Shown piece by piece: positions 11,154-27,233 of a stretch of DNA of 37,641 bases (position 1 is its first letter; each line of letters starts with the position of its first letter). Position numbers and translations under genes: made by a program. The stretch is from an uncultured Clostridium sp. (GTDB lineage Bacteria > Bacillota > Clostridia > Lachnospirales > Lachnospiraceae). The stretch is from positions 1 through 37,641 of the forward strand of contig CAMNRM010000051.1 of NCBI GenBank assembly GCA_946553025.1, given 5' to 3'. A model generated the notes under the pieces. It ran no database searches. It saw only the letters and a program-made list of their open reading frames with translations, and was not told where the DNA came from.

Positions 11154-11702
11154 CTAACGCAAAACCCGCCGCAGCACAAGCGCCGCAGCCACTCCGAGAA
11201 CCACCAGAAGGACATTGCTGACACCGGCAAACCAGGAAAGCAGAAACGCTCCCCCGCAAATCAGGATTCCCTTTTTCTTTGCCAATGCATCCCTGCCCAG
11301 TGAAAAAGCAGCGCTGCCGATAATGGGAACCACGGCTGCCTGTATTCCCCGCAGAGCGCCGTGACACCAGTAATTGGTTTTCAGTACATTGTAAAAGCAA
11401 GTCACCACGGATAAAATAAGAACTGCCGGACAGATAATCCCCAGGACAGCACAAAGCCCTCCCCAAAACCCTCCGACATGATAGCCAAACAGCATACTGA
11501 TATTGGTAATCATAATTCCTGGAATGGACTTCCCCACAGCCACCATTTCCAGCAGTTCATCTTTCGTTATCCACTGCCGCCGATCTACAAACTCCTGCTC
11601 CATCTGCGCTAAGATGCTCCATCCCCCGCCGAAGGTAAAGCAGCCGATTTTAAAGAAAAAGGCAAACAGCATCAGCCCGTTTTTTATCTTTTCTTTCTTC
11701 AT
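11154..11702 (-). CDS. Chromate transporter family protein, first half-unit
   Basis: 182 residues, about five or six membrane segments. FKIGCFTFGGGWSILAQMEQ and VAVGKSIPGIMITN are the CHR family signatures, with SIPG in place of TPGP. ATG at 11702 is chosen: AAAGGGTG lies six bases upstream and a GTG nine bases earlier sits inside that site. It forms a two-gene operon with the half-unit downstream. The 255 bp up to the divergent acetyltransferase contain a perfect dyad at 11771-11794. Confidence 0.9.
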   Translation of the reverse strand: MKKEKIKNGLMLFAFFFKIGCFTFGGGWSILAQMEQEFVDRRQWITKDELLEMVAVGKSIPGIMITNISMLFGYHVGGFWGGLCAVLGIICPAVLILSVVTCFYNVLKTNYWCHGALRGIQAAVVPIIGSAAFSLGRDALAKKKGILICGGAFLLSWFAGVSNVLLVVLGVAAALVLRRVLR

Positions 11703-11770
11703 CACATTCACCCTTTTCTTTCACTTTACCATCCCTGGCTTTGGTTGTAAACTATATTCTTGCTTATAGG

Positions 11771-12479: not shown

Positions 12480-12582
12480 TTAAATTACACAGCAAAGGAT
12501 ACTAATAAAAGACATAGCAAACATGCTGTCTGCCATGCCTCTTATTAACCATTTCGTCAAATTTTTGCTTTAAATAACCTTC

Positions 12583-13683
12583 TTATTTTCTATCAATAAT
12601 CTGCTCCGCAATCTTTGCTCCCATATGATAAGTGGACAAAACGGTTTTTCCTTCTTCCCAAATATCTCTGGTTGCTGCCCCATCCTGGAGAACCTGTTTT
12701 ACTGCCTGCTCAATCCTACAGGCTTCTTCCTCCAGCCCAAAACTATAGCGAAGCATTAAAGCTCCTGCCATAATCATTCCTACAGGGTTTACGACCTGCT
12801 TTCCAATAACAGACTCATCCGGGTAATGAAGCTGATTAGGTGTGTAAATTCCCCGGCCATCCTGATTTACTTCAGCCGACGCATATAGATAAGGAGTTCC
12901 TGTCATCTGCGTCCCTTCATCCGAAATAATATCTCCAAAAAGATTTGAAGTGACAATGACATCAAAATTCTGCGGCGATTCTAATATCCGCATAGCGGCG
13001 TTATCAATATAGAAATGATCCAATGCAATATTCGGATATTCTGCTGCTGTTTCTTTTATGGTCTGACGCCAAAGCCGTGAACTTTCCAGCACATTGGATT
13101 TATCCAGGCTGCTCACCTTTTTCTTCCTTTTTTGCGCCATGGTAAAGGCAATTCTGGCTGTCTGTGCCACAATTTTTTCATTATAATACTCATATTCATA
13201 AGCTTCCAGCCCATCTGTTCCCTGTGAGCGTATCTTATCCGAACATAATACACCGCCTACAATATCCCGCACAAAGACAATATCCAGCCCTTTTTCTAAT
13301 ATTCTTTCTTTCAGCGGAGAAAAAGACCACAGAGAAGGATAAACATTTACCGGACGAATATTTGTTGTCACTTCCATCCCCCGGCGCAGACCCATTAAAG
13401 CCGCTTCCGGTCGTTTATCCAAGGGAAGGGACTGATACTTTTTTAATCCGGTATTGCCAAATAAAACAGCAGGCACGCCCCGGCAGATAGCTAAAGATTC
13501 AGGCGGCAGCGGATCAAAACATTCTTCAATACTTTCTCCGCAGGCTGCCACCGGATAAAGCTTAAGTTTATGCCCAAATTTACGGCATACCGTATCCAGT
13601 ACATGAATCGCTGCTTCCATCATTTCCGGGCCTACGCCATCCCCCTTAATTACTGCCGCTTCCAGTATTTTTCCTCCACTCAC
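12583..13683 (-). CDS. 3-isopropylmalate/isocitrate dehydrogenase family enzyme
   Basis: 366 residues, full length for the beta-decarboxylating dehydrogenase family. Motifs: AAVIKGDGVGPEMMEAA, LMGLRRGMEVTTNIRPV (substrate arginines), FVRDIVGGVLC, SSLDKSNVLESSRLWR, DHFYIDNAAMRI and VTSNLFGDIISDEG (metal-binding aspartates). The reaction is oxidation of a 3-substituted malate at C2 with loss of CO2, giving a 2-oxoacid and NAD(P)H. Starts at GTG 13683 after AAAGGGG. Last gene of the seven-gene operon, which lacks leuA and amino-acid aminotransferases, so a catabolic role is more likely than leucine synthesis. Candidate substrates: erythro-3-methylmalate, 3-isopropylmalate, isocitrate. Confidence 0.88.
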   Translation of the reverse strand: MSGGKILEAAVIKGDGVGPEMMEAAIHVLDTVCRKFGHKLKLYPVAACGESIEECFDPLPPESLAICRGVPAVLFGNTGLKKYQSLPLDKRPEAALMGLRRGMEVTTNIRPVNVYPSLWSFSPLKERILEKGLDIVFVRDIVGGVLCSDKIRSQGTDGLEAYEYEYYNEKIVAQTARIAFTMAQKRKKKVSSLDKSNVLESSRLWRQTIKETAAEYPNIALDHFYIDNAAMRILESPQNFDVIVTSNLFGDIISDEGTQMTGTPYLYASAEVNQDGRGIYTPNQLHYPDESVIGKQVVNPVGMIMAGALMLRYSFGLEEEACRIEQAVKQVLQDGAATRDIWEEGKTVLSTYHMGAKIAEQIIDRK

Positions 13684-13727
13684 TTTATACCCCTTTCATC
13701 AAATGTTCAGGTTTATGATGTTTGACT

Positions 13728-14831
13728 TCAGCAAGAAAACCCATTCCACACAGGAGCCCCAGTATAAACCTTCGCCTTTTCTTCACCCCTTAACACACGA
13801 ATTGCCCCGGCTGCCAGCGCCTCCATTTCAAATTCCCCTGCCATCACTTCCAACGGCGCAATAAAGGAGAGCATATCCCTCAAATAATCAACCACATATT
13901 GGTCGTGGGAAATCCCTCCCGTCAGGATAATGGCGTCCACTTTCCCCTTTAATACTGCCGCCATTGCCCCTGCCGTTTTGCCGATTTCATAGATCATGGC
14001 ATCATAAATCCGCTTGGCATAGGCGTCCCCATTTCGGATCATTTCTCCCACTTCCCTGGCATCGGAAGTTCCCAGATGATCCACCAGCCCGCCGGTTTTC
14101 GTCACCTTATCCCGCATTTCTTTTTCTGTAAATTTCCCGGAATAGCACATGGCAATCACATCCTTTACCGGAAGCTGACCGCAGCGTGTAGGTGCCATGG
14201 GGCCATCTCCATTCGCAATATCATTGGAGTCTATCATTTTCCCGTGATGATGGGCGGTTACGGAAATTCCGCCGCCGATATGACAGATAATCAAGTTCAG
14301 TTCTTCATACTTTTTCCCCACCTGCGCCCCGTAGCGAATGCCGATTTCCTTCTGGTTTAAGGCATGAATCCTGCTCTCCCGGTAAATCCCTTTCAACCCG
14401 GTTACTCTTGCCACATCGCAAAACTCATCCACATCCGGCGGATTCACCACAAAAGCCTGACCGCCGTATTCCTTAGAAAATGCCGCCGCAAGCTGTGCCC
14501 CCAAAGTAGCCGGATGCTTTACCGTATACCCTTCTCTGGCGTGTTCTAAAAGCATTTCCCCGATTTCATATACGCCGCCCTCCACATTCACCAATCCGCC
14601 GCCCCGTGCAGAAAAAGCATCTATTCCTTCAAGGCTCTGTCCGGCCTTTTTCAGTTCTTCTACTATGGTTTCCCTGCGGTAATCAAACTGATCCCGAATT
14701 TCTTTAAACTCTTTCAGCTTATTGGCATCATGGGAAACATTTTTAGAAAATACGGCTTTATCATTTTCAAACATGGCAATTTTCGTTGATGTTGAACCTG
14801 GATTAATCGCAAATACTTTATAGGTTTTCAT
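13728..14831 (-). CDS. buk: Butyrate kinase family acyl kinase
   Basis: 367 residues, normal length for Buk. Motifs: FAINPGSTSTKIAMFEND (ASKHA phosphate loop), SARGGGLVNVEGGVYEI, FVVNPPDVDEFCDVARVTGL, LIICHIGGGISVTAHHHGKM, RCGQLP and IILTGGISHDQ. The enzyme turns an acyl-phosphate and ADP into a fatty acid and ATP. Homologues accept straight and branched C3-C5 acyl groups. ATG 14831 has AAAAAAGGAG upstream; the longer frame to 14903 runs through an intra-operon hairpin and is unlikely. With the phosphate acyltransferase upstream it forms the ATP-yielding end of the operon's pathway. Confidence 0.92.
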   Translation of the reverse strand: MKTYKVFAINPGSTSTKIAMFENDKAVFSKNVSHDANKLKEFKEIRDQFDYRRETIVEELKKAGQSLEGIDAFSARGGGLVNVEGGVYEIGEMLLEHAREGYTVKHPATLGAQLAAAFSKEYGGQAFVVNPPDVDEFCDVARVTGLKGIYRESRIHALNQKEIGIRYGAQVGKKYEELNLIICHIGGGISVTAHHHGKMIDSNDIANGDGPMAPTRCGQLPVKDVIAMCYSGKFTEKEMRDKVTKTGGLVDHLGTSDAREVGEMIRNGDAYAKRIYDAMIYEIGKTAGAMAAVLKGKVDAIILTGGISHDQYVVDYLRDMLSFIAPLEVMAGEFEMEALAAGAIRVLRGEEKAKVYTGAPVWNGFSC

Positions 14832-14859
14832 GATTGTTTTCTCCTTTTTTACTTTTTTG

Positions 14860-14890
14860 AAAAGGCACAGCAAGATAACATTGCCATGCC
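14860..14890 (-). terminator. Intra-operon hairpin before the kinase gene
   Basis: On the minus strand GGCATGGCAA, seven bases, TTGCTGTGCC forms a 10-bp stem with two G-U pairs, followed by TTTTC. It sits in the 120-bp gap between transporter and kinase, the longest gap in the operon. It could be a partial terminator, an attenuator or an mRNA-processing site. Confidence 0.45.
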
Positions 14891-14951
14891 TTTCCAAAAT
14901 CATTTATTTTGCAGAATTTTTTGATTTTTAGGTTATATTTTTTTCTTTATA

Positions 14952-16286
14952 TTAGTGGAACATCGGATACAGCAGCCCAATCCAGATAACCATCAGCGCC
15001 CCTCCGATACGGGTGGAGATAGAAGCGAAAGCTAATAGATTCATCCGGTTTGCCGCAGACAGAACTGCCAGGTCGCCGGAGCCGCCGATATTGCAGCAGC
15101 AAAGTCCTGCTGTAACGCCTGCTTCGTAAGACCACAGCCCGGAAATCCGCCCAAAAAGCATAGCTCCGATAAACGCACCCAACACCGCCATAATAATAAC
15201 CACAAAAGAACCAATACTGAAGAACTCCGCCAGTGTCGCAAATTTCAGCGAATTAATACCGATACCTGCAATCAGCATAGGAAGCAGGGATTTTAACGCA
15301 AAATTCATGGAATACACACAGTTATCGCCAATCTTGTCCGGGATAATCCCTGTACATTTAATCATAATGCCAAAAATAATCGTCCAGGCCAGACCAGGGA
15401 TTACACTTAGTCCCGGAAGCTGCCCGAAAATATTTCCAAGCAGGTAAAGGCAGAAACTCATAAAGATACCGGAGCCAAGGGCAATATAATCCGCAGATGT
15501 TGCCGGGCGCTTTTCGCCTTCTGTATCCACAGAGGCTCCCTTTGCCCGCAGAATATCCCCGCCGCCGTTTAAGCCTTTCATCTTTTCTGTAACCGCGCCG
15601 CCCACTGCCGCCATAACTACGGCAAGCACATTGGCAATCGATGCATAACAGAGAAACTGTCCCGCCATAGGTGTCATATCTGTACCGGACAAGCTGCTGT
15701 ACAGCGCCGGAAGTGTGGTCATCGCACCGCCGGAACCGCCGGACATACAGGGTGCACCGATATTAAATAATGCTTCCGGCACACCAAACCCGGTCACTAA
15801 TCCCGCCAGCATACAAAATCCCAGGGCAAAAAGCTGGCTTCCCAAAATCGTCGGCAGATACCTTGCCGTCGCTCCCAAAAGCACTTTCCGATCCATAACC
15901 AGAATAGAACCTACAAGCAGCATGGCAATATACGCATCCTGGAAGCCGCCGGACATCAGCACCTTCGTTCCATTGACCAGTTCCTGGGGCACCAGTCCAA
16001 TAAAATTCATAAAGGAAGCACCTAACAGGGGCAAAAGACACGCGCCGCCCAGATAGTTATTGACAATGGGAATGGTATTGCCCAGCCAGAAAAAAATTCC
16101 TCCCACAGCCATTAAAAACGCAATGGTCATAATAAAGCTGGTGGCTACATAGCTTCCCGCATCATTCGAGTAAATCTTTACGGTAGGCATAAAACCAAGA
16201 TACACCGATGCCATAACAATAGCGAAAAAAACTACAAAATACTTTGCCGATAAACCGCAGACTTTAAAATTTATTTTCTTTTCCAT
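14952..16286 (-). CDS. 2-hydroxycarboxylate transporter (CitS/MleP family)
   Basis: 444 residues, about 11 hydrophobic segments. The two re-entrant-loop signatures of the 2HCT family are present: PCMSGGSGGAMTTLPALYS in the first half and CNIGGSGDLAVLSAANRMN with AFASISTRIGGALM in the second, which includes the arginine region known to bind substrate carboxylates in CitS. Family members carry citrate, malate, citramalate or related 2-hydroxy-carboxylates with Na+ or H+, or in exchange for products. It lies between the phosphate acyltransferase and kinase genes, so it probably imports the pathway's substrate. AGGGGG precedes the ATG. Confidence 0.9.
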   Translation of the reverse strand: MEKKINFKVCGLSAKYFVVFFAIVMASVYLGFMPTVKIYSNDAGSYVATSFIMTIAFLMAVGGIFFWLGNTIPIVNNYLGGACLLPLLGASFMNFIGLVPQELVNGTKVLMSGGFQDAYIAMLLVGSILVMDRKVLLGATARYLPTILGSQLFALGFCMLAGLVTGFGVPEALFNIGAPCMSGGSGGAMTTLPALYSSLSGTDMTPMAGQFLCYASIANVLAVVMAAVGGAVTEKMKGLNGGGDILRAKGASVDTEGEKRPATSADYIALGSGIFMSFCLYLLGNIFGQLPGLSVIPGLAWTIIFGIMIKCTGIIPDKIGDNCVYSMNFALKSLLPMLIAGIGINSLKFATLAEFFSIGSFVVIIMAVLGAFIGAMLFGRISGLWSYEAGVTAGLCCCNIGGSGDLAVLSAANRMNLLAFASISTRIGGALMVIWIGLLYPMFH

Positions 16287-16297
16287 GTGTAATCCCC

Positions 16298-17194
16298 CTA
16301 ATTTTTCCCGACCAGAGCCGCCAGGACAATGGACATATACTTGTCATCTGCACTTGCCGCCCGCGACACCAAAAGCACCGGAACCCGGGCTCCTAAGACT
16401 ACACCTCCGGTCCGTCCGCCTCCAATTACGGTAATGGTCTTTGCTGCAATATTGCCGCTGACCAAATCGGGAACGACTAAAAGATCCGCATCCCCTGCCA
16501 CCGGGCTTTCATACCCTTTAATAGAAGCAGCATCCGGGTCCATCGCCAAGTCGTAGCTTATCGGCCCTTCGATAATGCACCCTTCCACCCCTTCAGCCTT
16601 AATTTCTGCTGCTTCTACCGTTTCTTTCATCTTGGGATTTACCTTCTCCACCGCCGCCAGAACAGCCACCTTCGGCTGTTCAACACCCAGGGCGTGAAAC
16701 GCACTTACTGCATTGGCAATCGCTGCTTTTTTCTGTTCCTTGGTAGGATAGGTCAGAAGTGCCGGGTCAGTAATGGCAAATACTTTATGGTAATGGGGGC
16801 TTTCCATAAATCCCACCAGACTCATGGTATCGCTCTTTCGGATTCCATGCTCTTTATTCACCAGAACCTTCATCAGCGCCCCAGTTTCCGTTTTGCCCTT
16901 CATAATGCAGTCCACTTCGCCTGCCCGCGCCATATCCGCCGCTTTCTGGATACTTTCGATGGGATCTTTTACGTCAATAATCGTCATATCTTCTGCATGG
17001 ACGCCAAGCTTGTCCAAAATCTCACGAATGGCAGGCTCATCCCCAATCAAGACCGGCTCCACCATGCCGTCCTTCCAGGCGTGGCAGACAGCCTCTAATG
17101 TATGCTCATCCTGGGCCGGTGTTACTGCCACACGGCGCTTTACCGGCATGGCACGCAGCCTGTCCTTTAACTGCTCAAAATTTTTAATTATCAT
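16298..17194 (-). CDS. ptb: Phosphate butyryltransferase family enzyme
   Basis: 298 residues, the length of Ptb rather than Pta. Motifs: KRRVAVTPAQDEHTLEAV, DCIMKGKTETGALMKVLVNK, ITDPALLTYPT, CIIEGPISYDLAMDPDAA, DLLVVPDLVSGNIAAKT and the C-terminal GARVPVLLVSRAASADDKYM. It exchanges the CoA of an acyl-CoA for phosphate. It starts 7 bp after the LeuD-LeuC fusion stops and ends 11 bp before the transporter gene. Together with the kinase it would convert acyl-CoA made by the ferredoxin oxidoreductase into acid plus ATP. Propionyl-, isovaleryl- and butyryl-CoA all fit the family; the sequence does not choose between them. Confidence 0.92.
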   Translation of the reverse strand: MIIKNFEQLKDRLRAMPVKRRVAVTPAQDEHTLEAVCHAWKDGMVEPVLIGDEPAIREILDKLGVHAEDMTIIDVKDPIESIQKAADMARAGEVDCIMKGKTETGALMKVLVNKEHGIRKSDTMSLVGFMESPHYHKVFAITDPALLTYPTKEQKKAAIANAVSAFHALGVEQPKVAVLAAVEKVNPKMKETVEAAEIKAEGVEGCIIEGPISYDLAMDPDAASIKGYESPVAGDADLLVVPDLVSGNIAAKTITVIGGGRTGGVVLGARVPVLLVSRAASADDKYMSIVLAALVGKN

Positions 17195-17201
17195 GTTTTC
17201 C

Positions 17202-18995
17202 TCACTTCCTGGGATCGGTCACTACCCCGGCAATCGCCGTAGCCGCCGCTAAAGTAGGGCTGGACAGATAGCTTAACGTTTTTTTCGTCCCCTGCCTTCC
17301 GATAAAGTTCCGGTTAGCCGTTAAAAGAATCCTTTCATCATCCGTCATTAAGCCATAGGGCATACCGCAGCACAGACCGCAGCATGGATGGGAAATCACT
17401 GCCCCCGCTTCAATAAAGGTTTTGATGTACCCCCGCTCAATCGCCTGCTTAAATACGGTATTCGTCGCCGGGACAACCACAAAGCGCAGCCCCTTTGCCA
17501 CGGTTTTCCCTTTTACAATTTCCGCCGCTGCTTCCAGATCTTCAATGCTTCCATTCGTACAGCTTCCCAGGTAAACCTCGTCAATCTTTGTCCCAATCAC
17601 TTCGCTGATGGGATGAACATTATCCACGCCCTGGGGACAGGATAACTGCGGCTCCAACTGGCTTACATCATAGGTCAGCACCTTTTCATAATGGGCTTCT
17701 TCATCCACGCAAACCCAGTCAATCTCTTCCAGGGGCATACCGTAATACTCCGCCGTTTTTTCATCGGCTTCAAACAATCCGCATTTTGCACCGGCTTCCA
17801 GCGCCATATTTGCCACCGTAAACCGCTGTTCCATACTCATTTCATGGGCTGCCGGACCGGTAAATTCCAGCGACTTATACTGACCGCCGTCGGCTTTAAT
17901 ATCCCCCAGAATTTTTAAGATCACATCCTTCGACATCACTTTATCGGAAAGATGCCCGTTTAGCACAATCTTGATGGCATCAGGCACTTTAAACCATAAT
18001 TCTCCGGTAATCAGCGCTGCCGCCATCTCTGCCGTGCCGATGCCGGTACAGAAATTTCCTGCCCCGCCATACGTCGTTGTATGGCTGTCCGTTGCCGTGG
18101 CAATTTCTCCCGGCCTCGCGTACTTTGCTTCATGCATAATGGTGTGGCAGATTCCCTCACCGATGTGTAATTTTTTTATCCCATATCTCCTGGCCAGTTC
18201 TAACCCGGCATCATAGTGATTAGCATCATTTTTCGCCACCGCAGTAGGCATACAGTGATCCCACACAATCGTTACTTTGTCCGGATCATCGATTTTTTCC
18301 GCACCGATTTTATTCATGGTATCGACCAGATAGGTGGTGTAAATATCATGAATCATAAACATATCCGGTTTTGTAATCACAATATCCCCCGGCTGCACAT
18401 GCTCTTTTCCCGCATTTTTCTTCAGCAGTTTTTCCACCATAGTATAGCCTTTTTTCCTGCACTGTTCGATAGTCAATGGCTTTATTTCGGTTTTTACAAG
18501 CCCCTGGGCGATCCGTTTTTTTGTATCCTCAATCAAGCCTCCATTGGCTACAATATTAAACAGGTTTTCCGGGATTGCTCCTACCGAAAAACTCTTTCCG
18601 TTCACGCTTACGGTCTGGGCCTCTACGTCCACTGTGACAATATCCCCGCCGTCGCACACGTCCTGGATTTCGTCACACTGCAGCAGCAGGATTCCGCTGT
18701 TAAACGCATTGCGGAAAAAAATCCTGGCAAAACTTTTTGCAATAATGCAGCGCACCCCATTATAAGAAAGAACTGTTGCCGCCTGCTCACGGCTGGAACC
18801 GCAGCCGAAATTGCTGCCGGCTACCAGAATATCCCCTGCCTGTACGGTAGAACCAAACTCCGGTTTGAGCAGTTCAAAGGCATATTTTTTCATTTCATCA
18901 ATTGTCGGAATCGTGCCGCGCTTTCCTGGGATAATGGTATCCGTGTCAATATCATCTCCAAATTTCCAGATTCTTCCGCTGAATAATTTATCCAT
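17202..18995 (-). CDS. Fused 3-isopropylmalate dehydratase-type isomerase (small domain first)
   Basis: 597 residues. Residues 1 to about 165 are a LeuD-type swivel domain (GDDIDTDTIIPGKRG, AGSNFGCGSSREQAATVL, IIAKSFARIFFRNAFNSGI). From about Met186 a complete LeuC-type catalytic part follows (VWDHCMPTAVAKND, HIGEGICHTIMHE, TATDSHTTTYGGAGNF, YLGSCTNGSIEDLEAAAEIV, HPCCGLCCGMPYG, TANRNFIGRQG). All three Fe-S cysteine positions are present. The domains are normally separate, or in AcnA-type aconitases occur in the other order. The specificity loop after DTDTIIP reads GKRGTIP, unlike the YLxx loop I expect of LeuD. Reaction: shift of the hydroxyl on a 2-substituted malate via the unsaturated diacid. 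GGGAGG precedes the ATG. Confidence 0.9.
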   Translation of the reverse strand: MDKLFSGRIWKFGDDIDTDTIIPGKRGTIPTIDEMKKYAFELLKPEFGSTVQAGDILVAGSNFGCGSSREQAATVLSYNGVRCIIAKSFARIFFRNAFNSGILLLQCDEIQDVCDGGDIVTVDVEAQTVSVNGKSFSVGAIPENLFNIVANGGLIEDTKKRIAQGLVKTEIKPLTIEQCRKKGYTMVEKLLKKNAGKEHVQPGDIVITKPDMFMIHDIYTTYLVDTMNKIGAEKIDDPDKVTIVWDHCMPTAVAKNDANHYDAGLELARRYGIKKLHIGEGICHTIMHEAKYARPGEIATATDSHTTTYGGAGNFCTGIGTAEMAAALITGELWFKVPDAIKIVLNGHLSDKVMSKDVILKILGDIKADGGQYKSLEFTGPAAHEMSMEQRFTVANMALEAGAKCGLFEADEKTAEYYGMPLEEIDWVCVDEEAHYEKVLTYDVSQLEPQLSCPQGVDNVHPISEVIGTKIDEVYLGSCTNGSIEDLEAAAEIVKGKTVAKGLRFVVVPATNTVFKQAIERGYIKTFIEAGAVISHPCCGLCCGMPYGLMTDDERILLTANRNFIGRQGTKKTLSYLSSPTLAAATAIAGVVTDPRK

Positions 18996-19007
18996 CCTGA
19001 TCCTCCC

Positions 19008-20129
19008 TTACATCCGGCTGCTGACGGCGGCTGCCATCACCGTTTCTGTCGAAGCGCAGTAAACTTTCGCGTCTTCACATCCCATAGCTCCTGCAAAGGT
19101 ATAAAGTCCTGTGGTTACCAGACATTCCTTTGGTCCCATGGCACCTGCCCCCTGTACGATTACACTGTGATCCCCGGCAGCACTGATCTGTGCCCCAAAA
19201 TCAATAAACTTTGTCAGAATGCCTTCTTCCATCGCCTGGATATAGTCCCGGCTGGTTGCCGGGCACACGGTCAGACGAAATCCCCGGGCCAATGTTTTTC
19301 CGTCAATCAGCGCAGCGGCCTTCCTCAGTTCCTCTATGGTTCCCCCGGTGTACCCTCCAATCTGTCCGGCCTGCAGCTTCATCCCGGACACATTTCCTCG
19401 TTTCTCTATCCCGGCTTTTTTCTGTACCGTGCGGTTTTCGCACGGCATCATCACCATCGGCTCCACACCGGATAAATCAAAGCCAAAAGCATCTCCTGGC
19501 TTTTCCTCGATCACCGAAGCCGTAAAAGCCCCGGTCATACAGGCCATGCTGCAGAGCACATCCCGCTGATGCTGATCCAAGGTCGGGCAATAAAACGCCA
19601 GCGCCTTTCTTTCCACATCCCTTTTTTCCTTTAACAGTGCCAGCGCCGCATCCATAATGCTTACTCCGAGATTTAGTGTACCTTCCAGGCTTATATTCAC
19701 CGTTTCCGGGACAACGATGCTGTAACGCCCGGTTTCTGTTACCCGTGCCAGCTCGGGAATGCTGACATTAATGCCTAATGCGCCCCTGGCCCCGAAAATA
19801 CTTCCATGGGCACCGCCGCCGACAATGATCTGGCCCGGTTTTACCAGTTCATCAGCCATATACTGGTATCCGGTTCCCTTAGCCTGGATGTAGGTACAGC
19901 CATATTTTTCTGCAAACAACAGATTTTTCCGCAAAACGGCTGCCGCCTCCGGACGCCCCGTGGGTACATCGTGGTCATAAATCACCAGAACTTTTTCCGG
20001 GAAAGCTACTGTGGAGATGTCCTCCACAGCAGCATGAGATACCCCGTCATTTATCACGATATAATCCGGCTCCACCGTTACCACTGTCCCTGCATTTCCT
20101 CCCAATATCGCTTCTACGAATGTACTCAT
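19008..20129 (-). CDS. LeuC/aconitase-like paralogue lacking Fe-S ligands
   Basis: 373 residues, collinear with LeuC from VLVIYDHDVPTGRPEAAAVL to the C-terminus, but the signature positions are changed. Where LeuC has GSCTNG this protein has GGYTGG (Tyr260); where LeuC has CxxC it has AAGDHSVIV (near residues 317-325); TDSHT is replaced by GGGAHGS. Hence none of the three cluster cysteines remains at its expected place. The frame is intact and it has its own AAGGAG site before ATG 20129, so it is a maintained gene and not debris. It lacks a swivel domain. It could be a cluster-free lyase or dehydratase, or a partner of the fused isomerase encoded 12 bp downstream. No function can be assigned. 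Confidence 0.85.
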   Translation of the reverse strand: MSTFVEAILGGNAGTVVTVEPDYIVINDGVSHAAVEDISTVAFPEKVLVIYDHDVPTGRPEAAAVLRKNLLFAEKYGCTYIQAKGTGYQYMADELVKPGQIIVGGGAHGSIFGARGALGINVSIPELARVTETGRYSIVVPETVNISLEGTLNLGVSIMDAALALLKEKRDVERKALAFYCPTLDQHQRDVLCSMACMTGAFTASVIEEKPGDAFGFDLSGVEPMVMMPCENRTVQKKAGIEKRGNVSGMKLQAGQIGGYTGGTIEELRKAAALIDGKTLARGFRLTVCPATSRDYIQAMEEGILTKFIDFGAQISAAGDHSVIVQGAGAMGPKECLVTTGLYTFAGAMGCEDAKVYCASTETVMAAAVSSRM

Positions 20130-20178
20130 ATCAATTCTCCTTATCGATTTGCTGTAAAAATTCAACAGGGTACGAGGA

Positions 20179-23100
20179 TTACTGGGCAAGGGCTTTATAC
20201 TTTGCGTATCTTGCCTTCGCTTCCTTCTCCGTCCTCTCAAACAGGGCGTCTGCCTCCTGGGGGAAGGTTCTTTCCAGTGCGGAGAAACGTACTTCTCCCC
20301 GCAAAAACTCGCGGAAATCTCCCGCAGGTTCTTTTGAATCCAGAATAAACGGATTCTTTCCTTCTGCTGCAAGTTCCGGGTTATGGCGGTATAACTGCCA
20401 GTATCCCACATCCACCGCACGCTTAATTTCACCCTGCACATCTCCCATGCCGCAGCGCAGACCATGGCTGATGCATGGAGCATAGGCGATAATCAGCGAC
20501 GGGCCGTCATAGCTTTCTGCCTCGGTAATGGCTTTTAAGAATTGTGCAGGATTAGCGCCCATGGCTACCTGTGCCACATATACATCCCCGTAACTCATCG
20601 CCATCATGCCCAAATCTTTCTTCTTATTTCTCTTGCCTGCCGCAGCAAACTGTGCCACTGCGCCGGTAGGCGTAGCTTTGGAAGCCTGTCCGCCGGTATT
20701 GGAATAAATTTCTGTATCAAAGACCATAACATTGACATTGGCCCCGGATGCCAGCACATGATCCAGACCGCCGTAACCGATATCGTAAGCCCATCCGTCA
20801 CCGCCGAAGAACCATACTGATTTCTTGGTCAGATGATCCAGATTGGCTTTGATTTCTTCTACCGTTTCCTTTTCTTCTTCCGAAGGGGTATACTTCATTA
20901 TTCTTTCCTTCAGCACTTCACCGGTAAGTTTTGACTGCTCGGTATCGTTCATCCCTGCCAGCCAGTTCTCTGCTGCTTCTTTTAATGCCCCGTCACTGGT
21001 CTTTTCAGCCAATGTGCTTACAAACATCGCCAGTTTGCTTCTCTGCTGCTCTACCGAAAGCCAGATACCCATGCCGTACTCGGCATTATTCTCAAATAAA
21101 GATCCGCCCACTGCCGGCCCCTGGCCCTTATAATTCGTGGTATAAGGGAAGGACGGGAAACTGGTCGCCCAAACCTGGGAGCATCCTGTTGCCGTAGCCA
21201 CATACATCCGGTCACCGAAAAGCTGGGTAATCAGCTTCGCATACGGTGTTTCCCCACAGCCTGGACAAGCACCTGGGAATTCCAGCAATGGCTGTTCAAA
21301 CTGGCTTCCCTTTACGCTGGATGTACCCACCGGGTTTTTCTTGGGAGAAAGGGCAATCGCATACTCCCAGTTCGCCGCCTCATCCCGGTGCTGATCAAGA
21401 GGCTTCATGGTAATGGCTTTTTCTTTCGCCGGGCATACGCTGGCACAGCTTCCGCATCCGGTACAATCCAGGACAGAGGTCTGTATCCGGTACTGATAGC
21501 CTTCCATACCTTTTCCCTTTGCCAAAACCGTGGTAAATCCTCCCGGTGCTTTTGCCGCTTCTTCTTCGGTGGCAAGGAAAGGCCGGATACATGCATGGGG
21601 GCAGACATAGGAACACATATTGCACTGGATACACTTCTCGCTGTCCCAAACCGGAACCTTAACGGCAATCCCTCTCTTTTCATATTTCGATGTCCCCTGA
21701 GGCATGGTTCCATCCGGCAGATCAATAAACTCGCTGACCGGGATAAAATCTCCCTTCATGGCATTTACCGGAATCTGAATATTGCGAATCCACTTTGGCA
21801 AAGACTCATCTGTAGTTATCGGATCATCCTCCAGATCCGCCCATCTTTGTGGAACTTCCACCTCTTCCACCAGTTCTGCGCCCTTATCTACTGCTGCGTA
21901 GTTCATATTGACCACCTTATCTCCCTTTTTTCCATAGGATTTTAAGATAGCTGCCTTCATATACTGAACCGCTTCTTCAATGGGAATAATCCCGGTAATC
22001 TTAAAAAATGCTGCCTGTAAAATGGTATTCGTCCTGCTTCCCAGACCCAGTTCTGCTGCGATTGCCGTAGAGTCAATAGTATACAGATGAATCTTCTTTC
22101 GGGCCGCTGCCTTTTTAAATGCTGTGGTCAGGTGCTTTTCCAGCTCCTCGCCCTTCCAGTCACAGGTAATCAGTACATTCGCGCCCTCTCTGGCATCCGC
22201 CAGGATATCGTACCGATCCAGATAAGACTTGTTATGGCAGGCGATAAAATCCGCATGGTTGACCAGATAAGTCGAACGGATAGGCGCTTTGCCAAAACGC
22301 AGATGGGAACGGGTAACACCGCCGGACTTCTTGCCGTCATATTCAAAATACGCCTGCACATTCAGGTCCGTATGATCGCCGATAATCTTAATCGTGTTCT
22401 TATTGGCCCCTACCGTGCCGTCCGAGCCCAGCCCCCAGAACTTACAGCTAATCGTTCCTTCAGGAACCGTATTCACCTCCGGCCCTACTTCCAGAGAAAG
22501 GTGGGTTACATCATCATTAATTCCGATGGTGTAATGGCTGCGGGATTTATCCGCTTTCATATTGTCATACTGGGCAATCACCTGCGCGGGAGTATAATCC
22601 TTGCTGGCCAGTCCATAGCGGCAGGCAAGGACTTCAATATCCCTGTCGGACTCCAAAATTACAGAGCAGACATCTTCATACAACGGTTCACCCACGGCCC
22701 CCGGTTCCTTCGTCCGGTCATTCACCGTAATCTTTTTCACCGATTCCGGAAGCTGCTCTAAGAAATATTTTGCAGAAAACGGACGGTACAGATGGACATC
22801 GATATAGCCAACTTTTTCTCCTTTTTCCAGAAGATAGTCCACCGTTTCACGGACACAGCCGCTGGAAGAACCCATAACCACGATAACATGCTCGGCATCG
22901 GGTGCTCCGTAATAATTAAAGGGCCGATAATCACGCCCGGTAATGGCATTGATCTTATCCATATATTCCGCAACAATTTCCGGCAGGTTATCATAATATG
23001 TATTGCAGGCTTCACGGCTCTGGAAATAGGTATCCGAATACTGCCCGGTCGTGCGCAGAACGGGATGCTCCGGGTTTAATGCATTGGCACGGAACTTATC

Positions 23101-23703
23101 AAGCTCTTCCCAATCTACCAGATTTTTCAAATCCTCATAATCCAGACAGTCCACCTTCTGGATTTCATGGGATGTGCGGAAACCGTCAAAGAAATGTAAA
23201 AACGGAACATGGCCCTTAATAGCTGCAAGATGGGAAACTGCGCCAAGATCCATAGCTTCCTGCACGCTGGAAGATGCCATCATGGCAAATCCGGTCTGAC
23301 GGCAGGCCAGAACATCCGACTGTTCAGCAGAAATAGAAATCGCGTGGGTTGCTACATTTCTGGATGCCACATGGATGACTCCCGGCTTTAACTGTCCGGC
23401 AATCCGGTACATGGTGGGAATCATCAGCATTAATCCCTGGGATGCCGTATAGGAAGATGCCAGTACGCCGCCGTCCAATGCACCGTGCATCGCCGATACC
23501 GCGCCGCACTCGGACTGCATCTCCACCAGCCTTACCTGCTGCCCGAAAATATTTTTCATCCCGCCTGCCGACCACTTATCTACCAGTTCTGCCATCGGTG
23601 ATGACGGAGTAATCGGATAAATCGCTGCCACTTCGGTAAATGCATAAGAAGCATACGCTGCTGCTTCATTGCCATCCATTGCCCTTCTTACTTTATTGCT
23701 CAT
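20179..23703 (-). CDS. nifJ: Pyruvate:ferredoxin (flavodoxin) oxidoreductase
   Basis: 1174 residues, single-chain PFOR. Domain order is as expected: N-terminal pyrimidine-binding part (AMDGNEAAAYASYAFTEVAA, IYPITPSSPMAELVDKW), CoA and central parts, two [4Fe-4S] motifs (CIQCNMCSYVCPHACIRP and CTGCGSCASVCPAKEKA), then the TPP domain (GACPGCGETPYAKL, GDGWAYDIGYGGLDHVLA, YSNTGGQASKATPTG). Reaction: 2-oxoacid + CoA + oxidised ferredoxin to acyl-CoA, CO2 and reduced ferredoxin; such enzymes often take 2-oxobutyrate too. ATG 23703 is preferred because AGGAG is nine bases before it; ATG 23709 would leave three. First gene of the seven-gene operon and directly under the LacI operators. Confidence 0.95.
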   Translation of the reverse strand: MSNKVRRAMDGNEAAAYASYAFTEVAAIYPITPSSPMAELVDKWSAGGMKNIFGQQVRLVEMQSECGAVSAMHGALDGGVLASSYTASQGLMLMIPTMYRIAGQLKPGVIHVASRNVATHAISISAEQSDVLACRQTGFAMMASSSVQEAMDLGAVSHLAAIKGHVPFLHFFDGFRTSHEIQKVDCLDYEDLKNLVDWEELDKFRANALNPEHPVLRTTGQYSDTYFQSREACNTYYDNLPEIVAEYMDKINAITGRDYRPFNYYGAPDAEHVIVVMGSSSGCVRETVDYLLEKGEKVGYIDVHLYRPFSAKYFLEQLPESVKKITVNDRTKEPGAVGEPLYEDVCSVILESDRDIEVLACRYGLASKDYTPAQVIAQYDNMKADKSRSHYTIGINDDVTHLSLEVGPEVNTVPEGTISCKFWGLGSDGTVGANKNTIKIIGDHTDLNVQAYFEYDGKKSGGVTRSHLRFGKAPIRSTYLVNHADFIACHNKSYLDRYDILADAREGANVLITCDWKGEELEKHLTTAFKKAAARKKIHLYTIDSTAIAAELGLGSRTNTILQAAFFKITGIIPIEEAVQYMKAAILKSYGKKGDKVVNMNYAAVDKGAELVEEVEVPQRWADLEDDPITTDESLPKWIRNIQIPVNAMKGDFIPVSEFIDLPDGTMPQGTSKYEKRGIAVKVPVWDSEKCIQCNMCSYVCPHACIRPFLATEEEAAKAPGGFTTVLAKGKGMEGYQYRIQTSVLDCTGCGSCASVCPAKEKAITMKPLDQHRDEAANWEYAIALSPKKNPVGTSSVKGSQFEQPLLEFPGACPGCGETPYAKLITQLFGDRMYVATATGCSQVWATSFPSFPYTTNYKGQGPAVGGSLFENNAEYGMGIWLSVEQQRSKLAMFVSTLAEKTSDGALKEAAENWLAGMNDTEQSKLTGEVLKERIMKYTPSEEEKETVEEIKANLDHLTKKSVWFFGGDGWAYDIGYGGLDHVLASGANVNVMVFDTEIYSNTGGQASKATPTGAVAQFAAAGKRNKKKDLGMMAMSYGDVYVAQVAMGANPAQFLKAITEAESYDGPSLIIAYAPCISHGLRCGMGDVQGEIKRAVDVGYWQLYRHNPELAAEGKNPFILDSKEPAGDFREFLRGEVRFSALERTFPQEADALFERTEKEAKARYAKYKALAQ

Positions 23704-23810
23704 GCTCATATTCTCCTGCCTTTCTTTACATTCCTTGGACGGAAAGACTTTTCTTCCCCAAAAGTCTTATGGTTTACATGTTTTATTAATTTTGTATCAG
23801 TTTAACGTAT

Positions 23811-23827
23811 TAGTAAAACGTTTATCC
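23811..23827. promoter_or_regulatory. LacI-type operator O1 at the PFOR promoter
   Basis: AGTAAAACGTTTA, an inverted copy of the element at 23843-23858, just downstream of the PFOR -10 element. A further TTTAACGT half-site lies beside it at 23801-23808. AT-rich dyads centred on a CG step are typical LacI-family sites. Confidence 0.65.
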
Positions 23828-23835
23828 TTACGAAT

Positions 23836-23864
23836 ATGTTAATTTAACGTTTTACTTTTGTCAA
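23836..23864 (-). promoter_or_regulatory. Promoter of the seven-gene PFOR operon
   Basis: Minus strand TTGACA (23864-23859), 17-base spacer, TAACAT (23841-23836), about 130 bp before the PFOR start. Operator O2 fills the spacer and O1 covers the transcription start region, the arrangement expected for repression. Confidence 0.65.
23843..23858. promoter_or_regulatory. LacI-type operator O2 in the PFOR promoter spacer
   Basis: TTTAACGTTTTACTTT, identical over 16 bases to 25231-25246 at the second unit. It lies between the -35 and -10 elements. Confidence 0.7.
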
Positions 23865-23958
23865 GGTTTTTTTGTGAATTTGCTTTTTTCTGTCGTTTTT
23901 TACATTTACTCATTATCTTTTTTATGCATTTTTCACATATTTCTTTCGTCCTTTTATC

Positions 23959-23988
23959 TTGACAAAGTAGTTTTTGCTCTTGTAAGAT
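23959..23988 (+). promoter_or_regulatory. Promoter of the lacI-type gene
   Basis: TTGACA (23959-23964), 18-base spacer, TAAGAT (23983-23988), 61 bp before the ATG. A half-operator AGTAAAAC follows at about 23997-24004, so weak autoregulation is possible. Confidence 0.6.
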
Positions 23989-24049
23989 TAAGTTTAGTAA
24001 AACAAAAACAAAGCAATTTGGGATTTTCCCCCAGAAATGAGGATAATAT

Positions 24050-25075
24050 ATGGCTACAATTAAAGATGTTGCGAAGGCAGCCGGTGTTTCTGTAACCACC
24101 GTATCGATTATTATTAATGGAAAAGCAGAGGAACGAAAAATTTCAGAGGCCACACGTGACCGGGTACTGGAAACCATGCGTGAACTAGGCTATCAGCCAA
24201 ATTTAAGTGCCCGCCGGCTCCGCAACCAGGACAGCAAAAAACCGGTAATTGCCTTTTTCTGGCCCATCGATTACCGCACAACTATCCTGGCTTCTTTTTT
24301 GAACGCACTGCAGCTTGAAATTAAAGCATTGGATTTTGACTGTGAACTTGTTATTCAGACCTATGAAAACGATCATCTGAGCCAATATGGTTCATTAATC
24401 TTAAAAAATGAATACAGCGGCATTATTGTGGGTGCCTGTTCTTATGATGATCTGGACTACCTGGAGAAACTTTCCCCGTTAATGCCCCTGGTTTTGATTA
24501 ACCGGACTTCTGAACATTTTTCTACGGTAGGCGTAGACAACCACGAAGTCGGTTTTTTGGCCGCCAGACAATTTCGTCAAAAGGGATACACAGAAGCCGT
24601 TGTATTTGCTTCCGAACATTCCTATGTAGCTACCGGACAGCGTACACAGGCATTTCTCTATGCCTGTTCCCAGGCAGGAATCAATGTTATGGCAGAGCAT
24701 ATTTTTAAAATCCCAAACACAATCAGCGGAGGATGCCTGGCTGCCGAACAATACTGCCGGCTTTCCGATCCTCCAAAGATTATTTTTTGTGATTCCGATA
24801 CCATTGCCATCGGAGCATTAAACACCTTCCACCGATTTGGCTATCGCTTCCCTGACGATGTGGAGCTGCTGACCATTGCCATGCTGGAACCAGATTATGC
24901 CCAGCATACCAATCCGCCGCTAAGCGTTATTGAAATGCCGAACCATGAAATCGGAAAACAGATTATTGACCTTCTTTATGAAAAAATCACTAATCATAGT
25001 CTGGAACCTACCCATATTACACTCCCGGCAACGTTAATTCTGCGGGACAGTTTTTGTGGGAACCCAAACCTGTAG
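24050..25075 (+). CDS. LacI-family transcriptional regulator
   Basis: 341 residues. N-terminal LacI helix-turn-helix and hinge: ATIKDVAKAAGVSVTTVSII, then EATRDRVLETMRELGYQPNL. A periplasmic-binding-protein-like effector domain follows (FSTVGVDNHEVGFLAARQFR, KIIFCDSDTIAIGALNTFHR). GAGGATAAT precedes the ATG. It is divergent from the PFOR operon and upstream of the carboxyltransferase-CMD unit, and the same operator word occurs at both, so it should be the local repressor of the whole catabolic block. The effector is presumably the substrate or an intermediate. LacI proteins usually bind sugars, so an organic-acid effector would be less usual. Confidence 0.93.
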   Translation: MATIKDVAKAAGVSVTTVSIIINGKAEERKISEATRDRVLETMRELGYQPNLSARRLRNQDSKKPVIAFFWPIDYRTTILASFLNALQLEIKALDFDCELVIQTYENDHLSQYGSLILKNEYSGIIVGACSYDDLDYLEKLSPLMPLVLINRTSEHFSTVGVDNHEVGFLAARQFRQKGYTEAVVFASEHSYVATGQRTQAFLYACSQAGINVMAEHIFKIPNTISGGCLAAEQYCRLSDPPKIIFCDSDTIAIGALNTFHRFGYRFPDDVELLTIAMLEPDYAQHTNPPLSVIEMPNHEIGKQIIDLLYEKITNHSLEPTHITLPATLILRDSFCGNPNL

Positions 25076-25145
25076 CAGATATTTTCTGTTCGCCAATATC
25101 TTTTGTCCGCCACCCATGCAATCTGCCCTTTGCTCTGTTCTGGAG

Positions 25146-25180
25146 AACGCCGTAATTTTTTTATGGCGTTTTTTCTTTTT
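25146..25180 (+). terminator. Terminator of the lacI-type gene
   Basis: AACGCCGTAA, five T, TTATGGCGTT: a 10-bp stem with one G-U pair, followed by TTTTCTTTTT. It isolates the regulator gene from the next promoter. Confidence 0.8.
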
Positions 25181-25185
25181 TCCTA

Positions 25186-25214
25186 TTGACAACTCTGTTT
25201 TTTTATATTATGAT
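25186..25214 (+). promoter_or_regulatory. Promoter of the carboxyltransferase-CMD unit
   Basis: TTGACA (25186-25191), 17-base spacer, TATGAT (25209-25214), immediately followed by two operators. A long leader of about 125 bases precedes the gene. Confidence 0.75.
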
Positions 25215-25230
25215 TACTGTATCCTTTTAG

Positions 25231-25246
25231 TTTAACGTTTTACTTT
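25231..25246. promoter_or_regulatory. LacI-type operator O3
   Basis: TTTAACGTTTTACTTT, identical to O2. It lies just downstream of the expected transcription start. Confidence 0.7.
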
Positions 25247-25250
25247 AGAT

Positions 25251-25267
25251 GGTTTAACGTTGTATTT
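25251..25267. promoter_or_regulatory. LacI-type operator O4 (variant)
   Basis: GGTTTAACGTTGTATTT, a weaker copy 20 bases after O3. The 20-bp offset (about two helical turns) would put both sites on one face of the DNA. Confidence 0.55.
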
Positions 25268-25347
25268 ATCCTTTTGTAAAATCAGAAGCCTTCACCTTCC
25301 CTTGAAGGTTCCCGATTTTAATACCACTTACGAAAGGACGTGATTTT

Positions 25348-26754
25348 TTGTTTTGGAGCAAAAAACCAAAGCCCCATGAAGGCATCGGTGCCGGTGCTGC
25401 TGATTTTGCAGGTGCTGGTATTCCCTTAAAGTTTAACAGTGTTGAATTTCGTGACGGACAGCAGTCCTTGTTTGCCACACGGATGACGACAGCAGATATG
25501 ATTCCTCTCTTAACCCGCATGGATCAGGTAGGGTATGACAGCATGGAAATGTGGGGAGGCGCAACCTTTGATGTTGCTGTGCGGTTCTTAAAAGAAGATC
25601 CCTGGGATCGTGTACGCGAATTTAAGAAATATATGAAGCACACACCGCTGAAGATGGTGCTCCGGGCACAGAATCTGGTGGGCTATAAAGCTTATCCCGA
25701 TGATATTGTAGAAAAGTTTGTAGAAAAGGCAACAACAGCGGGCATTGATATTTTTCTTATTTTTGATGCCCTGCAGGATCTGCGCAACTGTGAATCTGCA
25801 TTCCGTGCAGTAAAAAAAGCCGGAAAGAAAATAGAAGGTTCTGTCCAGTACAATGTCAGTCCCTTCCACACCACAGAGGTATTTGTACAGAATGCCTTAG
25901 AACAGGAAAAAATGGGGGTTTCCCTGATGCATGTGGAGGATATGGCTGGATTAATGACCCCGCAGGCCGCCTATGAATTGATTTCTGCCTTAAAGAAGGC
26001 ATTAAAAATCCCTGTTCATCTGCACTGCCACTGTACCGGAGGCATGGCGGAAATGGCTTATTGGGAAGCTATCCGCGCCGGAGTAGACGGGCTGGATGTC
26101 TGTGTTTCTTCCATGTCCATGGGCCCGGCTCATCCCCCTATTGAAAGCTTTGTCACGGCATTAAAAGGAACCAGCCGCGACCCGAAAATTGACGTGGGAC
26201 AGTTTAAATCCATTAATGATGATTTTATGAAACTGCGGAAAAAATACGCGGATTTTGAAACAAAACTTGTGGGCGTAGATGTGGGATGCTTACAGCACCA
26301 GGTTCCCGGAGGTATGCTCTCCAACCTGGAAAGCCAGCTCACTGCCATGAAGCTCTATGACCGGCTCCCGGAGGTTTTGGAGGAAGTCACAAGAGTTCGG
26401 GCAGATATGGGCTATCCTCCTCTGGCCACACCTTCCAGCCAAATGTGCGGCGCACAGGCAACCACAAATGTATTAACGGGAAACCGCTATGCTATGGTAA
26501 GCAAGGAATTGAAAGAATACTGCCGCGGAATGTACGGAAAACCCCCCGGCCCGATCGCACCTGAACTGCTGGAAAAGGCTCTGAATGGAGAATCCCCCGC
26601 TTTCCCGCGCCCCGGAGATATGCTGGCACCCGGTTTTGAAACCACCAGGGCAGAGATTGGCGCATTGGCACAGACAGATGAAGATGTTTTAACTTATGCT
26701 CTGTTCCCCAATTATGCGCCGGATTTCCTTCGCACTAAATACCAGATTCAGTAG
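25348..26754 (+). CDS. Carboxyltransferase-family protein (PycB/OadA/5S-like) with altered metal site
   Basis: 468 residues. The TIM barrel and C-terminal part match the transcarboxylase 5S / oxaloacetate decarboxylase alpha family: EFRDGQQSLFATRM (Asp36), MVLRAQNLVGYKAYPDDIVE, VHLHCHCTGGMAEMAYWEA (His226, His228), QVPGGMLSNLESQLTA and LATPSSQMCGAQATTNV. The family's carbamylated lysine in IKDMAG is Glu197 here (HVEDMAGLMTP), and FRVFDAMND is FLIFDALQD. No biotin-carrier domain or MKM motif is present, and no biotin protein occurs in the window. TTG 25348 is the only start that fits AAAGGA nine bases upstream. It may be a biotin-independent decarboxylase or aldolase-type enzyme; the reaction is unknown. 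Confidence 0.85.
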   Translation: MFWSKKPKPHEGIGAGAADFAGAGIPLKFNSVEFRDGQQSLFATRMTTADMIPLLTRMDQVGYDSMEMWGGATFDVAVRFLKEDPWDRVREFKKYMKHTPLKMVLRAQNLVGYKAYPDDIVEKFVEKATTAGIDIFLIFDALQDLRNCESAFRAVKKAGKKIEGSVQYNVSPFHTTEVFVQNALEQEKMGVSLMHVEDMAGLMTPQAAYELISALKKALKIPVHLHCHCTGGMAEMAYWEAIRAGVDGLDVCVSSMSMGPAHPPIESFVTALKGTSRDPKIDVGQFKSINDDFMKLRKKYADFETKLVGVDVGCLQHQVPGGMLSNLESQLTAMKLYDRLPEVLEEVTRVRADMGYPPLATPSSQMCGAQATTNVLTGNRYAMVSKELKEYCRGMYGKPPGPIAPELLEKALNGESPAFPRPGDMLAPGFETTRAEIGALAQTDEDVLTYALFPNYAPDFLRTKYQIQ

Positions 26755-26837
26755 CCACATAGCACAGCACCAAATTAATCCGTGAAAAGCATAGATTACA
26801 AAGAGAAATTTGATAGAAAAATGAAAGGAGGAGTTTG

Positions 26838-27233
26838 ATGAAACAGTCAGATGAAGATAAATTAAAACGTTCTCTGGAAATTTTACAGGAATTAAAAGAA
26901 GCCCGCGGAGGAAGTCTTTTAGACTCCCACCGGGTAATGGGCAATGACCCTAACCTGATTAATATGTTCTTACAGCAATATGTAAACTGCAACAAAAAAG
27001 ATATCTCCATTCCCAAAAAATACCGGGAACTGATTGTTATGGCTGTGGGAATGGCCACAGGAACCGAAACAACCATGAAAGTCCATGCAAAAATTGCCCT
27101 GGATAACGGCGCTGCCATCGACGAAATTTTTGAAGTAATCCGCATCATTTTCTTTACCTGCGGCGTTACCAAACTATTGCCCGCTTTAGAAACACTGGGA
27201 GATTTATTTGAAGCGATAGACGTACCAGAATAA
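26838..27233 (+). CDS. Carboxymuconolactone decarboxylase (CMD/AhpD-like) family protein
   Basis: 131 residues, all-helical. Core: PKKYRELIVMAVGMATGTET and KVHAKIALDNGAAIDEIFEV, the conserved CMD segment with its His. The CxxC peroxidase pair of AhpD is absent (ETTM at that position), so it is closer to the decarboxylase-type or structural members. AAAGGAGGAG precedes ATG 26838. It is the second gene of the unit, 83 bp after the carboxyltransferase-like gene, and shares its LacI control. A role on an intermediate of the same pathway is likely, but which one cannot be read from sequence. Confidence 0.87.
   Translation: MKQSDEDKLKRSLEILQELKEARGGSLLDSHRVMGNDPNLINMFLQQYVNCNKKDISIPKKYRELIVMAVGMATGTETTMKVHAKIALDNGAAIDEIFEVIRIIFFTCGVTKLLPALETLGDLFEAIDVPE

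Follow-up and report, generated by a model that had tools for sequence, protein, structure and literature searches.

A LacI-linked gene cluster of Lachnospiraceae, possibly for the fermentation of an alkylmalate

Which acid might be fermented by an operon that carries an isomerase and a dehydrogenase of the leucine-biosynthesis families beside an importer and ATP-forming enzymes? The question is raised by positions 12583-27233 of contig CAMNRM010000051.1 (37,641 nucleotides, analyzed whole and called the window here) from an uncultured Clostridium sp. of the Lachnospiraceae (assembly GCA_946553025.1). The original prediction, made from the DNA alone, regarded this block as a catabolic pathway for a 2-substituted malate such as citramalate. 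We place slightly better than even confidence in a reading along these lines, namely a LacI-repressed operon through which an alkylmalate, here an imported 2-hydroxy dicarboxylate whose side chain is uncharged, would be fermented to a short fatty acid with formation of ATP.

Gene content, recurrence and control

The cluster comprises ten genes (Table 1). Seven, which span 23709 to 12583 of the minus strand, are packed tightly head to tail and run from the promoter in the order pyruvate:ferredoxin oxidoreductase (PFOR), LeuC2, LeuDC, Ptb, 2-hydroxycarboxylate transporter (2HCT), Buk and LeuB'. The LacI gene is divergent from them and is followed on the plus strand by the genes for OadA' and then CMD. 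All families named by the original prediction (LeuB-type, Buk, 2HCT, Ptb-like, LeuD-LeuC, PFOR and LacI) were present as strong profile matches, but its arrangement of them "in order of use" was its own listing; it also overlooked LeuC2 (20129-19008) and left OadA' and CMD outside its scheme. For LeuC2, listed as an open reading frame of 19008-20483, the likeliest start is 20129; the portion upstream of it overlaps the PFOR gene. Relatives suggest a Buk start at 14831, and the ATG at 26838 is the likely start of the CMD-family gene.

The absence of biosynthetic partners was borne out. No profile for leuA, cimA or an aminotransferase passed within 12583-27233, so that leuA with leucine-linked genes beside leuB, leuC or leuD, the arrangement of a leucine-biosynthesis operon, did not occur there; OadA' matched LeuA/CimA-type models weakly, all far below cut-off. 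The set is extra and dedicated, because housekeeping copies lie elsewhere in the genome: a leuC/leuD pair and a second PFOR (58% to the operon PFOR) at C4, and leuB (41% to LeuB') at C20. An isocitrate dehydrogenase-like gene was found at C36.

The cluster could be followed in other genomes. All ten genes occurred together in Anaerobium acetethylicum and in G695, a genome of the same genus as the window, and the cluster is thus not a chance grouping. A fragmented Lachnospiraceae metagenome-assembled genome (isolate name Lapin-001, from which we took "rabbit") carried eight of the ten on separate contigs; in this fragmented assembly no PFOR was detected next to LacI, and the pieces retrieved showed no LeuDC. 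LeuB' was present in all four clusters with sufficient sequence. Anaerobium has the same gene order, with genes for a DUF6198 membrane protein and a YciA-like thioesterase added ahead of LeuB'. G695 has LeuB' between PFOR and LeuC2, an extra DUF6198 gene and an acetate-kinase-like open reading frame. In the rabbit-named genome, LacI and LeuC2 are separated by genes for two PF00756 esterases, a DUF997 protein and a PanF-like symporter, and Buk and LeuB' by a metallo-hydrolase gene. Nonsynonymous divergence (dN) was far below synonymous divergence (dS) for every gene compared, many dS values being saturated, and OadA' and CMD ranked with the better conserved members.

The cluster is rare yet occurs across genera. 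LeuC2 was matched in 266 of 299 genomes of the family at E 1e-10; among the matches listed, only the window's own and that of Anaerobium (65%) were close and the others were at most 38% identical. At E 1e-42, one of 398 genomes of the phylum matched, its own. The LeuDC fusion was found at E 1e-150 in two of 11 genomes of the genus (its own and G695), and LeuDC-type matches at E 1e-170 in 20 of 397 genomes of the family; 18 of these 20 were 46-48% identical, with an internal stop that marks leuD and leuC as separate, adjoining genes. When GTDB contigs were scanned for two narrow peptide patterns, three loci emerged, in the rabbit-named genome, Anaerobium acetethylicum and a goat-reticulum contig filed under Synergistaceae. 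The last, 3 kb long, carries LeuC2, an end of PFOR and the larger part of LeuDC, 66-89% identical, which suggests misbinning or transfer. Recent transfer of the window's operon was unsupported by composition, its GC content (0.475) lying within that of the genome's other stretches (0.366-0.504).

The two transcription units share operators of the type GTTTAACGTTTTAC. One lies within the -35/-10 spacer of the operon's promoter-like site, and those of OadA' lie immediately beyond a near-consensus promoter-like site; OadA' and CMD thus belong to the cluster. With one mismatch allowed, the pattern occurred three times in the window, only at these two promoters (shuffle mean 0.32; a count of three was reached in one of 100 shuffles). 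Promoter-like sites as such were not enriched (24 vs. 24.1 in shuffles). By eye, operator-like repeats were present at both promoters in all four clusters read, the window included. We infer that the cluster is repressed by the LacI-type regulator. A regulon beyond the window was rejected: the one exact pattern tested had seven matches genome-wide, three in the window and four elsewhere, none of the latter at a pathway promoter (three within open reading frames, one between converging ones), and the reversed pattern also gave four. Thus leuA or ilvE under the same operator, which would have spoken for biosynthesis, was not seen among these matches.

Table 1. Features of the cluster, with coordinates in the window and supporting profile or pattern matches.
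Feature	Position	Strand	Evidence
Terminator-like hairpin, about 35 bp beyond the LeuB' stop (a pattern match only; such sites in the region: 27 vs. 16.6 in shuffles)	12503-12547	-	20 paired positions (5 G-C)
LeuB', isopropylmalate dehydrogenase-family protein without the catalytic Tyr	12583-13683	-	TIGR00169 348.7 bits (cut-off 353.2)
Buk, butyrate-kinase-family acyl kinase	13728-14903	-	TIGR02707 431.8 bits (above cut-off 289.1)
2HCT, 2-hydroxycarboxylate transporter	14952-16286	-	PF03390 422.5 bits
Ptb, phosphate butyryl/acyltransferase-like	16298-17194	-	PF01515 153 bits; TIGR02706 267.2 bits (below cut-off 410.5)
LeuDC, fused LeuD-LeuC hydro-lyase, isopropylmalate/citramalate-isomerase type	17202-18995	-	TIGR02086 468.9 and TIGR02087 178.1 bits (both above cut-off)
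LeuC2, aconitase-fold protein lacking the usual Fe-S ligands	19008-20129	-	
PFOR-family 2-oxoacid:ferredoxin oxidoreductase, altered substrate pocket	20179-23709	-	TIGR02176 1786 bits
Promoter-like site 23836-23864 with LacI-type operators 23813-23826 and 23842-23855	23813-23864	-	
LacI-family regulator	24050-25075	+	PF00356, PF13377
Promoter-like site 25186-25214 with operators 25230-25243 and 25252-25265	25186-25265	+	11 of 12
OadA', carboxyltransferase-family protein, OadA/PycB-like, no biotin domain	25348-26754	+	PRK09282 627.7 bits (cut-off 402); TIGR01108 (oadA) 604.1 bits (cut-off 756.5)
CMD-family small protein without AhpD-type CxxC	26835-27233	+	PF02627 49.6 bits; alignment of four copies

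Substrate residues of the isomerase, importer and PFOR

LeuDC is a single polypeptide with the small subunit (LeuD) as its N-terminal part. All 12 aconitase-family columns that we take to be catalytic (three Fe-S cysteines, the DSH motif, the NRNF arginine and others) were intact in all three copies, which, with TIGR02086 above cut-off, places it among isomerases of the isopropylmalate isomerase/homoaconitase type. Among the best solved relatives, the large part scored 349.8 bits against the isopropylmalate/citramalate isomerase of M. jannaschii and 304.4 against homoaconitase; for the small part the two were close (125.6 and 121.9 bits). The LeuD loop reads GKRGTIPT, with Thr at the position of the homoaconitase Arg, although the residue two places ahead of it is an Arg.

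The importer appears to have lost some of the citrate contacts. In CitS, Arg402, Asn186 and Tyr348 hold citrate (excerpts of PMC4718727). When the importer was mapped onto CitS, the only 2HCT member compared, from a single phmmer pairwise alignment, these residues were Ile, Ser and Ser in four of four copies; Arg428, Ser405 and the Na2-site residues Asn401 and Asp407 were kept, and Na2-site Ser427 was Thr, again in all four. With Arg428 kept, Arg402 replaced and a TIGR00783 score of 255.5 against a cut-off of 549.05, it falls outside the CitS group. Such changes would fit a substrate without citrate's third carboxylate.

The operon PFOR differs from housekeeping PFORs at 73 separating columns, among them residues of the substrate pocket. 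The pyruvate methyl group of the D. africanus enzyme sits among Leu121, Ala219, Ile843, Asn996 and Met1202 (excerpts of PMC5020499). The changes L121I, A219G and I843V were present in all three operon copies and in none of four housekeeping PFORs, where Leu and Ile were invariant and position 219 was Ala in three and His in one, and were also missing from two solved PFORs aligned. The protein scores as a family member (TIGR02176), Thr31, Arg114 and Asn996 were kept, and Met1202 falls outside the alignment. Judged by these residues, a 2-oxoacid other than pyruvate may be favored.

These residues bear on whether the operon serves a conventional fermentation of citrate (or malate), with aconitase- and isocitrate dehydrogenase-like enzymes that have diverged. 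The importer family, the OadA relative and PFOR do resemble citrate fermentation sets, and a CitE-like protein and a YbhJ-type hydratase are encoded at 585-4207 of the window. The loss of the citrate contacts, the changed PFOR pocket and the Thr in the LeuD loop (despite the nearby Arg) run contrary to this explanation, as does LeuB', which is not isocitrate dehydrogenase-like. The importer and dehydrogenase residues in particular would argue against citrate and isocitrate, and on them we set this reading aside as very unlikely.

The region 585-4207 (minus strand) and 4317-5564 (plus strand) encodes the CitE-like lyase and the hydratase, an aconitase-family protein of YbhJ/PRK11413 type with 770 aa, in divergent orientation to a LysR regulator. 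The genome has another YbhJ-like copy (81%) at C88. Unrelated neighbors in the window encode an AAA-ATPase_like/PDDEXK_9 protein (8070-9767), a chromate-transporter-like half (11154-11711) and a Fic-domain protein (35606-36721).

In the preferred scheme, an alkylmalate would be taken up by the 2HCT protein, probably coupled to Na+, and LeuDC would shift its hydroxyl group from C2 to C3 (2-alkylmalate to 3-alkylmalate). LeuB' would oxidize the 3-alkylmalate, and the beta-carboxyl group would be released as CO2, either in this same reaction or assisted by OadA', perhaps together with CMD. The altered-pocket PFOR would then convert the 2-oxoacid to an acyl-CoA with reduction of ferredoxin, and Ptb and Buk would turn the acyl-CoA into the free acid with formation of ATP. 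Citramalate to propionate is the simplest and shortest fit. About half of our confidence in the alkylmalate scheme goes to it, and its choice over another alkylmalate is a guess; of the original prediction for the substrate, only the alkylmalate type finds support.

A bulkier alkylmalate, such as 2-isopropylmalate yielding isovalerate, or an ester first cut by esterases, is one variant of this scheme that we weighed separately. It would agree with the isopropylmalate dehydrogenase-like pocket pattern of LeuB' (below), with the PF00756 esterases of the rabbit-named cluster and with the acceptance of branched acyl groups by the Ptb and Buk families. Against it stand the lack of an esterase gene in the clusters of Anaerobium and the window and the nature of the oxidoreductase, a PFOR-family enzyme that shows only small pocket changes; we regard it as improbable. 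Pantoate degradation, at which the PanF-like symporter of the rabbit-named cluster hints, was set aside, since 3,3-dimethylmalate cannot be dehydrated by a LeuDC-type enzyme.

LeuB', OadA' and LeuC2

Three members of the cluster, LeuB', OadA' and LeuC2, appear from their alignments to have lost or changed the usual catalytic residues of their families. LeuB' narrowly misses the cut-off for 3-isopropylmalate dehydrogenase, and its score against isopropylmalate dehydrogenases (324.7 bits) is far above those against tartrate (126.3) and isocitrate (111.9) dehydrogenases. Its copies formed one clade apart from four housekeeping LeuB proteins (support 99/97) in a tree of 10 rows, in which the G695 copy was a long branch and one row a fragment. 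Four of four copies retain the Glu-x-x-Leu pattern of housekeeping LeuB, presumably the pocket pattern of isopropylmalate dehydrogenases, as well as the catalytic Lys, and the remaining residues for substrate and metal seem unchanged. However, the Tyr of the GG-x-Tyr-F-G motif, which we take to be catalytic and which is present in four of four housekeeping copies, is Leu in the window and Phe in the other three, so that LeuB' lacks the Tyr-Lys pair of beta-decarboxylating dehydrogenases. The NAD loop is also rebuilt in four of four copies (HGSAPD to NQLH, with two extra residues; the rabbit-named loop was read from a second contig). Oxidative decarboxylation by LeuB' is therefore uncertain, which counts against the alkylmalate scheme. 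Of the leucine-type steps in the original prediction, that of the dehydrogenase is thus in doubt.

One answer would be to split the step: LeuB' would only oxidize 3-alkylmalate to an alkyl-oxaloacetate, and OadA' would decarboxylate this, alone or via the Na+-pump subunits OadB and OadG coded elsewhere, so that, much as when citrate is fermented, decarboxylation would pay for uptake coupled to Na+. The selective loss of the LeuB' Tyr and the operators shared with OadA' agree with such a division, as do the OadB, OadG, MmdA-like and further OadA genes that lie together at C86 of the genome. OadA' itself is the difficulty. The KDMA-motif Lys, presumably the one that is carbamylated in the family, as in 5S, is Glu in four of four copies and Lys in three different solved relatives aligned, which sets OadA' apart from biotin-dependent OadA/PycB proteins; where VcOadA and 5S have a Cys, OadA' has Gln, although this position is Ser in one solved PycB. 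Biotin-dependent carboxyl transfer by OadA' is doubtful on these residues, and the split step, another variant weighed separately, is in our view rather unlikely. The MmdA-like, OadG, OadB and OadA genes at C86 make up a Na+-pumping decarboxylase set, which could serve OadA'.

LeuC2 is a degenerate isopropylmalate-isomerase large subunit. The window copy keeps one (a His) of the 12 isomerase columns, and two of the three cluster cysteines are lost in five of five copies and the third in four of five, which puts LeuC2 outside the isomerases to which LeuDC belongs. It was present in all five loci; three of these (Anaerobium, rabbit-named and goat) were found through the LeuC2 search itself, and G695, found by the LeuDC search alone, carries it too. 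The idea of a pseudogene was rejected (dN 0.183 vs. dS 1.74 to the rabbit-named copy; dS 2.47 or saturated to the remaining copies). The view that LeuC2 belongs to the tandem LeuC copies frequent in the family was unsupported, LeuC2 forming a separate long branch in a tree whose program warns that long branches are possibly misplaced. The fold comparison was a second look at the Foldseek list only, and two ordinary LeuC proteins among the six alignment rows of the structure model bias it toward the aconitase fold. Most probably LeuC2 does not act as a hydratase but serves LeuDC as an accessory protein or a partner that binds it; LeuC2 would represent a conserved aconitase fold without a metal cluster.

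Among 19 loci chosen as good LeuC2 matches (L046-L064), 18 had two LeuC-type genes, mostly each with an adjoining leuD, and L060 had one. The two copies formed separate clades, and no LeuB-like neighbor was seen in the views taken.

A cluster-free LeuC2, a non-decarboxylating LeuB' and a biotin-independent OadA-family decarboxylase with CMD as partner might together have taken on new chemistry, in a previously unseen fermentation route, on an alkylmalate or a related acid; we regard this as rather unlikely.

Standing of the proposal and comparison with known systems

Several further points weigh against an alkylmalate fermentation. Its scheme, whose outline the residues support, has no job for LeuC2 and only weak ones for OadA' and CMD, well conserved as these are, an omission already present in the original prediction. 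Ptb, like LeuB', scores below its family cut-off, Arg402 may be special to CitS, and the PFOR changes are small, so that pyruvate may be its substrate. The two esterases and the PanF-like symporter of the rabbit-named cluster fit nowhere, and its LacI has no PFOR beside it. For Anaerobium, the words "citrate" and "malate" are absent from the main texts of two papers, and propionate and butyrate were excluded as side products on glycerol (excerpts of PMC5270724); the operon may be off during growth on glycerol. On the other side, Anaerobium carries the operon Buk and, in the passages of its genome paper available to us, was reported without butyrate from gluconate, glucose or glycerol (PMC5322786); both facts, and its extra YciA-like thioesterase gene, were counted in support.

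The same excerpts place a pyruvate carboxylase beta-subunit, PFOR and butyrate kinase (tags 101716, 101718 and 101723) under central metabolism (PMC5322786). We infer from number and order that these tags are OadA', PFOR and Buk on contig NZ_FMKA01000017, where they look specialized rather than central. The cluster points to a source of energy and an acid product that have gone unrecognized in some Lachnospiraceae, and direct testing is possible with the deposited type strain of A. acetethylicum (DSM 29698). As the original prediction supposed, no description of this cluster, or of citramalate or isopropylmalate fermentation by these enzymes, was found in the titles and abstract openings listed from an open-access library; its parts are known families and the combination appears undescribed there.

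The cluster shares with leucine and citramalate-isoleucine biosynthesis the families of isomerase and beta-decarboxylating dehydrogenase, and the same conversion of 2- to 3-alkylmalate is expected; LeuB acts on 3-methylmalate in isoleucine synthesis (excerpts of PMC2749216). In contrast, the operon has an importer and ATP-forming enzymes in place of leuA, cimA and an aminotransferase, its LeuD and LeuC are fused, its LeuB active site is altered, and other leu copies lie elsewhere in the genome. CitS/OAD citrate fermentation likewise places a 2HCT importer and an OadA relative under one control, whereas the operon has no citrate lyase, has lost the citrate contacts, and has an OadA without biotin domain and carbamylated Lys. 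Glutamate fermentation through (S)-citramalate uses citramalate as an anaerobic intermediate (excerpts of PMC8473912), but no citramalate lyase was seen in the operon. Fermentation of threonine and methionine via 2-oxobutyrate, as outlined in the same excerpts, resembles the proposed scheme in the ferredoxin-linked conversion of 2-oxobutyrate to propionyl-CoA and the excretion of propionate; in the operon, the 2-oxoacid would derive from an alkylmalate and not from an amino acid.

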